Below, in pieces: positions 12,882-63,861 of a stretch of 64,000 nucleotides of DNA. Position 1 is the stretch's first letter. The number at the start of each line of letters is the position of its first letter. Made by a program: the position numbers and the translations under genes. Where the stretch lies: NCBI RefSeq assembly GCF_024166365.1, contig NC_064846.1, positions 26,619,866 to 26,683,865 of the forward strand. The letters are read 5' to 3'. The DNA is from Elephas maximus indicus (lineage: Eukaryota > Chordata > Mammalia > Proboscidea > Elephantidae). The notes beneath the pieces are model-generated. The model did no database searches and was not told where the DNA came from. It was given only the letters and a program-made list of their open reading frames with translations.

Positions 12882-28854
<15,973 letters not shown>

Positions 28855-43310: not shown

Positions 43311-43505
43311 CTAGATACTCCAGCTGAGGATGGCAAGAGTGGAAGCAGCCAACACAGCGGCCAGGGAGGCAGTGTCCGGGGCCCTGGCAGCCAGGGGTTC
43401 TGTGTGCTGCTGCAGCCACTCGAACTCTTCCAGCAGCTGGCGCCTCTGCAGCTCCGGGCCTACCTTCTCACGTATGGTCTTGTAGTAGCTGTTCAGATGC
43501 TGGAG
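43311..43505 (-). CDS. XPNPEP2: XPNPEP2 last exon (about human exon 21), GPI signal
   Basis: Acceptor TTGCAG|CTC. Encodes LQHLNSYYKTIREKVGPELQ to AILSWSI and TAG. The final 17 residues are hydrophobic, as needed for GPI attachment upstream near ARAPDTA. Confidence 0.97.
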   Translation of the reverse strand, partial: LQHLNSYYKTIREKVGPELQRRQLLEEFEWLQQHTEPLAARAPDTASLAAVLAASTLAILSWSI

Positions 43506-44080: not shown

Positions 44081-44170
44081 CTGCACAGGGGACAACAGGC
44101 TGACATCGATGAGGTTCCGGTCATAAGGCACCAAGGACACCACTTCAAAGGTCAGGTAGGTTCCTGGGTA
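44081..44170 (-). CDS. XPNPEP2: XPNPEP2 exon (about human exon 20)
   Basis: Acceptor TCTTAG|TAC, donor CAG|GTGAGT. Encodes YPGTYLTFEVVSLVPYDRN to SLLSPVQ. Confidence 0.97.
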
Positions 44171-46757: not shown

Positions 46758-46834
46758 CTTGGTCTTTGCTTCTACCACGAGGGCCACATCTTCAATTCGG
46801 ATCCCAAATTCTCCATCCTGATAGTAACCAGGTT
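46758..46834 (-). CDS. XPNPEP2: XPNPEP2 exon (about human exon 19), two Glu ligands
   Basis: Acceptor TCCCAG|AA, donor AAG|GTAAAG. The first split codon is Glu555; then PGYYQDGEFGIRIEDV with Glu569, to EAKTK. Confidence 0.97.
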
Positions 46835-47301: not shown

Positions 47302-47361
47302 CGATGGAAGTGAACATGCCCTTGGCCATGGCAATGTTGTTGGACTGGAATCCCACTGGCC
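47302..47361 (-). CDS. XPNPEP2: XPNPEP2 exon (about human exon 18)
   Basis: Acceptor TTCCAG|GG, donor G|GTATGG. Encodes PVGFQSNNIAMAKGMFTSI, residues 536-554. Confidence 0.97.
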
Positions 47362-47756: not shown

Positions 47757-47861
47757 ACTCATGCACACACAGGAAGTTGCCAATGCCATGGCCTGTTCCA
47801 TGGCCATAATTGAGACCAACGTCCCACAAGGCTCTGCGGGCAAAGGCCTCTGTTACTCGCC
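47757..47861 (-). CDS. XPNPEP2: XPNPEP2 exon (about human exon 17), His ligand; shifted-frame stop here
   Basis: Acceptor TTCTAG|GG, donor T|GTAGGT. In the proper frame encodes RVTEAFARRALWDVG to FLCVHE with GHGTGHGIG (His524). In the frame imposed by the upstream deletion, TGA occurs at 47759-47761. Confidence 0.97.
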
Positions 47862-48503: not shown

Positions 48504-48573
48504 CTGAGGTAGCAGCAGGAAAGATGAGTCTGGACAGATCGATGTTTCCTATCAGCACTCGGGTGTATGCTTC
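48504..48573 (-). CDS. XPNPEP2: XPNPEP2 exon (about human exon 16)
   Basis: Acceptor CACCAG|GAA, donor G|GTGGGT. Encodes EAYTRVLIGNIDLSRLIFPA ATS, residues 477-499. Confidence 0.97.
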
Positions 48574-49080: not shown

Positions 49081-49113
49081 TTCATTTTTCTTAAAGCCTT
49101 TTGTTTGGCTTAT

Positions 49114-49266
49114 TGTTAGGTGCTGTTGAGTCGGTTCCAACTCATAGCGACCCTATAGGACATAGCAGAACTGCCCCATGGGGTTTCCAAGGAGTGGCTG
49201 ATGGATTTGAACTCCTAACATTTTGGTTAGCAACCTGAGCTCTTAACCACTACGCCACCAGGGCTT
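49114..49266 (-). mobile_element. AfroSINE, antisense
   Basis: TTGTTAGGTGCTGTTGAGTCGG to CCACTACGCCACCAGGGC. Confidence 0.92.
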
Positions 49267-49277
49267 TGTTTGGTTTA

Positions 49278-49444
49278 AAACAAAAACCAAACCTGTTGCC
49301 GTTGAGTTGATTCTGACTTATAGCGACCCTGCAGGACAGAGTAGAACTGACCCATAGAGTTTCCAAGGAGCGCCTGGTGGATTCGAACTGCTGACCTTTT
49401 GGTTAGCAGCCATAGTTCTTAACCACTACTCCACCAGGGTTTCC
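49278..49444 (-). mobile_element. AfroSINE, antisense, directly after the previous one
   Basis: ACAAAAACCAAACCTGTTGCCG to CCACTACTCCACCAGGGTTTC. TTTGTTTGGTTTA at both ends suggests a target duplication. Confidence 0.92.
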
Positions 49445-49783
49445 TTGTTTGGTTTAGGGACTGATAATTTGGCAGGCCAGACCTCCTTTGTTGGGTCTAT
49501 TGTCTGTGGAAAGGGGGAGGGAGGCAGGCCGACAGCGGCCCCTTCTCCTGGTCACTCCATGTGGCAATGTGGTGAAGGGGACAGAGCACAAGCTTGTCAT
49601 CTTGGCAGGACAGCCTGGGGCAGTGGGCTCAACCTATTGAGCTGTGAGCTCCTTGAAGCCTGGACAGCATTGTTTTTTCTTTGTTTCCAGAACAATGTCT
49701 GACTTGCAATCAATCTCTGCTTGCTGGACACATAAATGCAGCCCCTGCTTCACCACCACCCCCCTCTCCCCGCCAAACAAAAC

Positions 49784-49982
49784 CCATTGTCGCAGAGTGG
49801 ATTCTGACTCACGGCAACTCCATGTGTTACACAGTAGAACTGCTCCGTACGGTTTTCTTGGCTATAATCTTTATGGAAGCCGATCGCCAGGCCTTTCTTC
49901 CACCCACACTACTGGGTGAGTTTAAACTGCCAACCTTCTGGTTAGTAGTTGAGCACAAAACCGTTTGAACCACCCAAGGACC
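49784..49982 (-). mobile_element. AfroSINE, antisense
   Basis: AAACCCATTGTCGCAGAGTGG to GTTTGAACCACCCAAGGACC. Confidence 0.88.
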
Positions 49983-50282
49983 TGCCTCACCCTCAGATGC
50001 TCCCTACTGCATCCAGATAACGGCCTGGCCTCTGCCCTGGGCTGACCTGCCCTCACTGTTTCCTACAAATCTCCAGCCCCTTTCCACCCCTGAGCCTCTG
50101 CTCATACGTTTTCTCTACCTGGAATGTTCTTCTTCCTCCTTCCTGCTCAGCTGTCGTTTTCTCTTTTTGCCCCCTCAGCACCTAGCAGAGGACTAGGCAC
50201 ATGGACAGCACTGAACAAAGATGTGTTCATGGATTTATTAAAATGGGAGAAGGATAAGCTGGGCTGAGGCACTGTTAACTCT

Positions 50283-50440
50283 CGAAACTCATTGCTGTCG
50301 AGGCGATTCCAACTCACAGCGACCCTACAGGACAGAGTAGAACTGCTCCATACAGTTTCCAAGGAGCACCTGGTGGATTTGAACTGCTGACCTTTTGGTT
50401 AACAGCCAGAGCACTTAACCACTACACCACCACGTTTCCA
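50283..50440 (-). mobile_element. AfroSINE, antisense
   Basis: AACTCATTGCTGTCGAGGCG to CCACTACACCACCACGTTTCC; flanking GAGGCACTGTT and AAGGCACTGTT look like its target duplication. Confidence 0.92.
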
Positions 50441-50913: not shown

Positions 50914-50934
50914 GGCCCCAGTTTAGGGCACCCT

Positions 50935-51145
50935 GGTGGCACAGTGGTTAAAGTGCTTTGCTGCAAACCAAAAGGTTGGTGGTTTGAGCTCACCGGCCGC
51001 TCCTCGGAAGAAAGATGTGACAGCCTGCTTCTGTAAAAAGATTTACAGCCTTGGAAACCCTACGGGGCAGTTCTACTCTGTCCTATAGGGTCGCTATGAG
51101 TCGGAACCCACTCGATGGCAACAGGTTTGCTTTTGGTTTGGGGCC
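50935..51145 (+). mobile_element. AfroSINE variant, ends 103 bases from the frameshifted XPNPEP2 exon
   Basis: GGGCACCCTGGTGGCACAGTGG head, CGCTCCTCGGAAGAAAGATG body and a near-consensus GGTCGCTATGAGTCGGAACC tail. Confidence 0.92.
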
Positions 51146-51247: not shown

Positions 51248-51306
51248 CTTTTGGAAAGCAGAGGGGGTGCCCCAGTGGACTGTTCTGGTGATATCTGGTT
51301 CCATCC
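51248..51306 (-). pseudogene. XPNPEP2: XPNPEP2 exon (about human exon 15) carrying the frameshift
   Basis: Acceptor TCACAG|G, donor AAG|GTAGGC. Reads GAT GGA ACC (DGT) and then AGATATCACC, where the family needs two more bases to give T-D-I-T-R-T. Beyond the gap the correct frame resumes as DITRTVHWGTPSAFQK. Length 59 nt against the 61 required by both neighbours' phases. Confidence 0.95.
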
Positions 51307-52287: not shown

Positions 52288-52492
52288 TAGGGTTGCTGTG
52301 GAGTCAACTCCGACTCACAGCAACCTCATGTGTGTCAGAGTAGAACTGTGCTCCACTGGGTTTTCAATGGCTGATTTTTGGGAAGTAAGTCACCAGGCCT
52401 TTCTTCCGAGGCATCTCTGGGTGGACTTGAACCGCCAACCTTTTAGTTAGCAGCCAAGAATGTTAACCGTTTGCACCACTCAGGGACTCCTT
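52288..52492 (-). mobile_element. AfroSINE, long-body subtype, antisense
   Basis: TTAGGGTTGCTGTGGAGTCAA to GCACCACTCAGGGACTCC. CCATAGGG on both sides may be a target duplication. Confidence 0.9.
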
Positions 52493-53475: not shown

Positions 53476-53682
53476 ACTCAAACCAGTTGCCATTGGTTTC
53501 GACTCACAGTGACCCCACGTGTGTCAGAGTAGAACTGTGCTCCATAGAGTTTTCAGTGGCTGATTTTTCAAAAGTAGATCACCAGGCCTTTCTTCCGAGG
53601 CACCTCTGGGTGGACTCAAACTACCAACCTTTTGGTTAGCACCTGAGCACTTAACCATTTGCATCACCCGGAGACTCTGATG
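53476..53682 (-). mobile_element. AfroSINE, long-body subtype, antisense
   Basis: CAAACCAGTTGCCATTGGTTTC to GCATCACCCGGAGACTC. Confidence 0.88.
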
Positions 53683-53884: not shown

Positions 53885-53956
53885 CAGTATTGTCCCCCAG
53901 AATCCAGCAGGTACATTTCATCCGAGGACAGCTTGCGATGCACCTCCTTGGTTGGG
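53885..53956 (-). CDS. XPNPEP2: XPNPEP2 exon (about human exon 14), first metal ligand
   Basis: Acceptor CTCCAG|C, donor TG|GTATGT. Encodes PTKEVHRKLSSDEMYLLDSG GQY, residues 433-455, with Asp450. Confidence 0.97.
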
Positions 53957-55011: not shown

Positions 55012-55089
55012 CTGTAGTGGGCCAGGGCAGCATTCAGGCCACTAGCAGAGATGGTTTCAAAACTGGGTCCTGAGGAGAACTCTTCTTCT
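55012..55089 (-). CDS. XPNPEP2: XPNPEP2 exon (about human exon 13)
   Basis: Acceptor TTCCAG|A, donor AG|GTACCT. Encodes EEEFSSGPSFETISASG to AALAHY, residues 407-431, with the conserved active-site His430. Confidence 0.97.
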
Positions 55090-56249: not shown

Positions 56250-56359
56250 CCTCGCAACTTGTTCACAAGCTCTGCTCCAGAGAACTCGTCTACTGTGCCT
56301 TTGGGCACATTCTTCTCCAGCCAGACCAAGTACCGGATCACAGCCACAGCGTCCCGCAC
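56250..56359 (-). CDS. XPNPEP2: XPNPEP2 exon (about human exon 12)
   Basis: Acceptor CTCCAG|GTG, donor GG|GTGAAG. Encodes VRDAVAVIRYLVWLEKN to ELVNKLR, residues 370-405. Confidence 0.97.
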
Positions 56360-57498: not shown

Positions 57499-57588
57499 AT
57501 GGCTGGCCTTGAGGAGGGCCTGCTCCTTGCTGTTTTTCACTGCCTTGGTCACCATCACTGGGGAGTAGGTGTCTGCCACAAGTTTCTC
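57499..57588 (-). CDS. XPNPEP2: XPNPEP2 exon (about human exon 11)
   Basis: Acceptor TGACAG|GAG, donor CAT|GTAAGT. Encodes EKLVADTYSPVMVTKAVK to LLKASH, residues 340-369. Confidence 0.97.
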
Positions 57589-57909: not shown

Positions 57910-58105
57910 CTTGGGTATCACTTCAAAGACCCCATAAGTAGTATAGCTGGTCCCAATCCAGATCCTCACATCTCCTGAGGCGTAGGCCTGGACACTGTCT
58001 CGGACTTGGCTGTAGTCCTCGATTTGCACACACATGGCGCCTGTGCAACTGGAGTTCAGATACCTCAGCGTGTCAGAACTAAAGCGGCTCTTGTTTGTAA
58101 ACAAC
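57910..58105 (-). CDS. XPNPEP2: XPNPEP2 exon (about human exon 10)
   Basis: Acceptor CCTAG|G, donor AAG|GTGAGC. Encodes LFTNKSRFSSDTL, the NSSC sequon, then VRIWIGTSYTTYG to VIPK, residues 275-339. Confidence 0.97.
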
Positions 58106-58434: not shown

Positions 58435-58516
58435 CTGATGGTAGAGTCGGTGAGCAGCACGTAGGAATAGAAGAAGGGATTGTACGGGATGTCGCTGCTG
58501 CGCAGGTTGAAGAGCC
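58435..58516 (-). CDS. XPNPEP2: XPNPEP2 exon (about human exon 9)
   Basis: Acceptor CTCCAG|GG, donor AG|GTATGG. Encodes LFNLRSSDIPYNPFFYSY to LTDSTI, residues 248-273. Confidence 0.96.
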
Positions 58517-59166: not shown

Positions 59167-59268
59167 AAGCTGTCTCATCAAGTGCCGACAGAAGGACGGC
59201 CGTCGGGGCTTTGGGATGCTCCTGCATTTGGCTTCGGATGCCAGAGACTTTCTCCTGCCAGGTGCTCC
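59167..59268 (-). CDS. XPNPEP2: XPNPEP2 exon (about human exon 8)
   Basis: Acceptor TTCTAG|GG, donor T|GTGAGT. Encodes STWQEKVSGIRSQMQ to LLSALDETA, residues 214-246. Confidence 0.96.
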
Positions 59269-63714: not shown

Positions 63715-63861
63715 CTGTGAATGCCTCTTGCAGGGCATAAATGGGCTGACTTGGAACAGGAGGCCTGTCTGCTCCCCACACCAGGTCCACAAGGTTGTCT
63801 GTGACGGACACTAGCTGTCTGTCAGAATCTTGGAGAGCCAGGTCATAACTCTCCCAGGAGC
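63715..63861 (-). CDS. XPNPEP2: XPNPEP2 exon (about human exon 7)
   Basis: Acceptor CTGCAG|GC, donor G|GTAGTT. Encodes SWESYDLALQ to ALQEAFT, human residues 165-212. The remaining 5' exons are beyond the right edge. Confidence 0.95.

Follow-up and report, generated by a model that had tools for sequence, protein, structure and literature searches.

Exon E15 of XPNPEP2 (positions 51248..51306, minus strand, of the 64,000-nucleotide stretch analysed, hereafter the window) is two bases short in this elephant assembly, and the break falls in the codon right before the second metal-ligand aspartate of the encoded enzyme, membrane-bound aminopeptidase P (Xaa-Pro aminopeptidase 2, peptidase family M24). 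We consider it likely that this is a genuine two-base frameshift null allele of the X-linked gene in a male elephant, and the assembly is almost certainly that of the Asian elephant mEleMax1. Findings of this kind, whether classed as null alleles or as young unitary pseudogenes, are already known; as in other young unitary pseudogenes and segregating nulls, for example human GBA3 as described in an excerpt of PMC7360587, a single-copy gene is disabled, and in the elephant gene one disabling change is seen.

We name the exons E1 to E21 by a numbering of our own, in which E7 to E21 are the 15 XPNPEP2 exons inside the window and E6 lies just outside it. The borders of E15 are normal (acceptor ...ccttcttcacag, donor gtaggc). 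In spliced-frame translation, its 59 nt start with the base that completes a tryptophan codon and continue with D-G-T (G|GAT GGA ACC), a lone base at 51296 that stands in a codon's place, and then GAT ATC ACC AGA, which opens the stretch D-I-T-R-T-V-H-W-G-T-P-S-A-F-Q-K from 51295 onwards; all 16 residues of this stretch are identical to human XPNPEP2. We take the one-base codon to be codon 460 in the numbering of human XPNPEP2, and the aspartate codon that follows it (51295-51293) to be that of Asp461. E14 (53885-53956) leaves phase 2 and E16 (48504-48573) is open in phase 0; E15 should therefore have a length of 1 mod 3, which 61 nt would fit, whereas its actual length is 2 mod 3. The preliminary description had named the gene XPNPEP2, had given the exon as 59 nt where 61 nt are required, and had placed the two missing bases between D-G-T and D-I-T-R-T-V-H-W-G, beside a metal-binding aspartate. 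The gene identity holds, the exon sequence and the phases of the flanking exons bear out the rest, and the break is found just before the counterpart of Asp426 of XPNPEP1.

Besides E15, the window contains 14 exons, all on the minus strand; they are open and have AG/GT borders, except that E21 has a stop codon in place of the donor. Upstream of the break, E7 (63715..63861, the first in the window), E8 (59167..59268), E9 (58435..58516), E10 (57910..58105), E11 (57499..57588), E12 (56250..56359), E13 (55012..55089) and E14 (53885..53956), which carries the first metal-ligand aspartate in LLDSGGQY, are intact. Downstream of it, E16 (48504..48573), E17 (47757..47861, with the GHGTGHG region), E18 (47302..47361), E19 (46758..46834, with the PGYY and RIED region) and E20 (44081..44170) are intact in their own frame, and E21 (43311..43505), the last exon, holds the original stop codon and a hydrophobic C-terminal tail in spliced-frame translation. 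The remaining metal-site motifs are kept, and the earlier statement that the other 14 exons, the remaining ligand motifs and the splice borders are intact is correct within the window. Upstream of the window, E1 to E4 and E6 are open with AG/GT borders, E1 starting with ATG; one exon between these contains a stretch of N and is readable only in part, and the coding sequence was thus checked incompletely. Neither the 14 window exons besides E15 nor the five upstream exons showed a second lesion.

With E6 to E21 spliced unchanged, the frame is open from E6 through E14 into D-G-T, and after the break it runs through 73 foreign residues to a premature TGA at 47759..47761 (minus strand, spliced-frame translation), which is where the preliminary description had put it. 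Exon junctions lie 2, 62, 139 and 229 nt 3' of this TGA, so that the stop stands 229 nt before the last junction, as well ahead of it as had been claimed; in the unshifted frame the downstream exons are open as far as the original stop codon in 43311-43505. By the usual rule, the message decays when a stop precedes the last junction by more than about 50-55 nt. Nonsense-mediated decay of the XPNPEP2 mRNA would be expected by this rule, and the decay that had been claimed earlier stands as an expectation drawn from the position of the stop.

When the two sides of the break were scanned apart, the upstream side matched positions 3-86 of the Pfam M24 profile (PF00557) and the downstream side positions 92-207; the shifted tail had no match to Pfam at E 0.001. 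The break (86/92) splits the M24 domain, in agreement with the claimed loss of the catalytic domain. A search of solved structures, for which the query carried an X at the break, gave 22 matches, the best being human XPNPEP1 (3ctz, E 5e-55); among the three alignments displayed of these 22, the spacing at the break is kept as G-T-T-D in all three and as D-G-T-T-D in two. The cytosolic aminopeptidase P, XPNPEP1 (PDB 3ctz), has D-G-T-T-D where the elephant exon breaks, and an excerpt of PMC5774706 gives Asp415, Asp426, Glu523, Glu537 and His489 as its catalytic residues. An active M24 aminopeptidase P has one continuous frame that holds both aspartates, the histidine and the two glutamates, and in the elephant gene this frame is broken between the aspartates. 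Judged from the sequence, a normal message could encode neither the entire M24 domain nor the C-terminal tail. An ATG (51302..51304, minus strand, frame 0 translation) is moved by the shift into the downstream D-I-T-R frame, and it is conceivable that a short C-terminal product starts there, which would be without the first metal-ligand aspartate.

Exon by exon, the gene is closer to XPNPEP2 than to XPNPEP1, and it lies beside SASH3 on the X, as in the human gene order. It thus occupies the same X-linked locus as a working XPNPEP2, with the other window exons and the splice borders kept; unlike in a working XPNPEP2, the frame is interrupted ahead of the second metal-ligand aspartate. The assembly that we searched for further copies comprises 3,401,163,062 bases in 64 contigs. 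With up to 3 mismatches allowed, a 29-base pattern from E15 matches the window once, and a 70-base stretch from the exon has one match in the whole assembly by DNA search. When the human XPNPEP2 protein was used as the query, 17 of 19 exon matches fell at this locus and the other two on contig C21; this protein search lists the best candidates only and missed the short E15 itself, for which the DNA search is the test. In six of the 17 matches at this locus, stops were counted in the extended match, and we take these to lie beyond the exon ends; the spliced exons are without stops outside the shifted frame. These searches found no second intact copy of E15, neither in the window with the 3 mismatches allowed nor in the genome by DNA or protein. 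Provided that the assembly is right, the gene is disabled and no intact copy was found elsewhere in the genome, as is characteristic of a null allele or unitary pseudogene. XPNPEP1, in turn, gave 17 of 18 matches on C21 and one here, covering residues 1-623 except 341-369, with a counted stop in four of the 17. The cytosolic paralogue, which is placed on C21 by these 17 exon matches, unlike the X-linked XPNPEP2, looks intact at this resolution.

The best match to human SRY is on another contig (C38:6736932-6737537, 59% identity over residues 3-202), and the next best is on the contig of the window (C37:15385829-15386110, 68% over residues 48-141), which we take to be SOX3. From the SRY match on C38 and the SOX3-like match on C37 it follows that C38 is the Y and C37 the X of a male with one X. 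Since the X is present once, the assembled allele is this animal's only one, and the deletion, if real, is a hemizygous null in this male. A reassembly of the reads of the mEleMax1 animal likewise has a male-like pattern, with 2.51% of expected genes missing in one haplotype versus 0.24% in the other (excerpt of PMC12800776).

The support for a real deletion comes from one consensus sequence of one animal, and two explanations would leave the animal with an open reading frame. It is improbable, in our judgement, that the consensus is in error, that is, that two bases are missing from the assembled X and the animal's gene is intact. Such an error would give what is observed, a sole lesion in an otherwise intact gene, and the single X has about half the depth, which we estimate at ~20-fold (137.82 Gb of reads on 3.4 Gb). 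However, PacBio HiFi reads amounting to 137.82 Gb exist for the animal (excerpt of PMC12800776), and because of these reads and a contig N50 of 88 Mb for mEleMax1 (excerpt of PMC10784532) we infer that the assembly was built from them; moreover, the site of the deletion lies outside homopolymers and detected tandem repeats. Nor did we see by eye any interruption of the frame where neighbouring genes were matched, a small sample in which 373 of 380 query residues were matched for SASH3, 735 of 771 for UTP14A and 244 of 364 for ZDHHC9; some of these match rows continue into introns and have stops there. For human AIFM1 and ELF4 the 283,700 bases examined held no match at E 0.01 and more than 55% identity, which has no bearing on this check of the error rate. 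Where the preliminary description had offered a recent lesion, a polymorphism or an error, we find error less likely than it allowed, given the HiFi reads and a site outside homopolymers and detected tandem repeats, and a recent origin is not strictly implied by the intact exons.

The other explanation is that splicing rescues the frame. We scanned five alternative GT sites (in E14 and 100 nt beyond it) and 13 AG sites (in 150 nt upstream of E15 and in E15), and only a cryptic donor 53 nt beyond E14 restores the frame through E15, keeps both aspartates and stays open, inserting a stretch between the two aspartates. This donor agrees with the consensus at four of nine positions, compared with seven of nine for the normal donor, and the insertion would fall in the metal site, so that we regard a rescue by this route as extremely unlikely. 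Other candidates with the right offset were rejected: the upstream AG sites at 29 and 119 nt both give stops, and the AG 22 nt into E15 removes the second aspartate. Skipping of E15 was rejected on the open frames of each exon, as no downstream exon takes phase 2.

How long a genuine null allele may have existed was estimated from the number of further lesions to be expected. E6-E14 and E16-E21 enter the estimate with 1527 codon bases, at which 3.35% of weighted substitutions lead to a stop. The estimate assumes a transition weight of 4, indels at 12% of substitutions, 85% of them frame-shifting, and 4 essential bases in each of 20 introns; it treats the full 2022-base coding sequence as seen, although this was actually seen only in part. 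The slower of the two neutral rates that we used is 0.4e-9 per site per year. The faster is 1e-9 per site per year, or 2.5e-8 per generation of 25 years, and is found in an excerpt of PMC12361634, as is the calibration of the split between African and Asian elephants at 7.7 Mya. Under these assumed rates, the gene would have escaped a further lesion with a probability of 0.87 (0.4e-9) or 0.70 (1e-9) after 1 My, of 0.34 or 0.07 after 7.7 My, and of 0.06 or 0.001 after 20 My. With no second lesion in the exons read, this estimate points to a young event, whose spread could range from one family line to all elephants. We hold polymorphism to be the most credible of the possible extents, followed by fixation in Elephas and then by an older origin, before the African/Asian split.

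The special case of a null allele that is fixed in Asian elephants or in all Elephantidae, as a young unitary pseudogene, is possible, and we give it appreciably less credence than the null allele as such. Ages up to the African/Asian split would fit the chances of 0.34 or 0.07 at 7.7 My, and other genes have already been lost in elephants, according to an excerpt of PMC11014510. On the other side, the evidence is one elephant, the chances of 0.06 and 0.001 make an age near 20 My unlikely, XPNPEP is absent from the main text of that gene-loss study, and we found no paper naming XPNPEP2 together with the elephant, as a pseudogene or otherwise, in the collection searched, a result that is silent on annotations and on papers beyond that collection. 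Searches on XPNPEP2 with gene loss in mammals, and on Elephas with bradykinin or kinin, returned only unrelated papers, to judge by their listing, and among the titles listed there is none on a mammal without XPNPEP2. The preliminary description had the whole lineage lacking the enzyme; this step from the individual is unsupported, its basis being one hemizygous male.

For the null allele in this male, which remains our preferred reading, the consequences would run as follows. Aminopeptidase P is one of several kininases and helps to degrade bradykinin. If the assembled bases are right, a spliced message with 73 foreign residues and a stop four junctions before the end would be subject to decay and, with no second copy found and no other allele in an animal that has an X and a Y, membrane aminopeptidase P would be absent in this animal, and bradykinin would have to be cleared by ACE, neprilysin and other kininases. 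For X-linked XPNPEP2, a male mammal that has no functional copy would represent a natural null. To our knowledge, membrane aminopeptidase P is otherwise general in mammals; that elephants are a lineage without it, clearing bradykinin by ACE, neprilysin and carboxypeptidases, we put forward as a doubtful suggestion. If such a lineage-wide loss were true, elephants would be a natural knockout and perhaps unusually sensitive to ACE inhibitors; as a fixed loss it would make them a natural experiment on kinin clearance, with practical relevance to how drugs are used in the care of elephants. If the allele is segregating, males of one population would differ in enzyme activity, and if it is an error, the outcome is a correction of the reference. 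For people, an excerpt of PMC10380452 reports that XPNPEP2 polymorphisms that lower plasma aminopeptidase P associate with ACE-inhibitor angioedema.

No RNA family matched the window at gathering thresholds. The SASH3 exons (12897-28854), identified by their match to the human protein, are on the minus strand, the same strand as XPNPEP2, and compared with that protein the gene has five codons fewer, in frame, in a serine/glycine-rich stretch. We also observed that the introns on either side of E15 are crowded with dispersed repeats of tRNA-derived appearance, resembling AfroSINE, one of which (50930-51140) lies about 110 nt beyond the E15 donor, with further copies among 49113-50437, 52301-52453 and 53490-53642.
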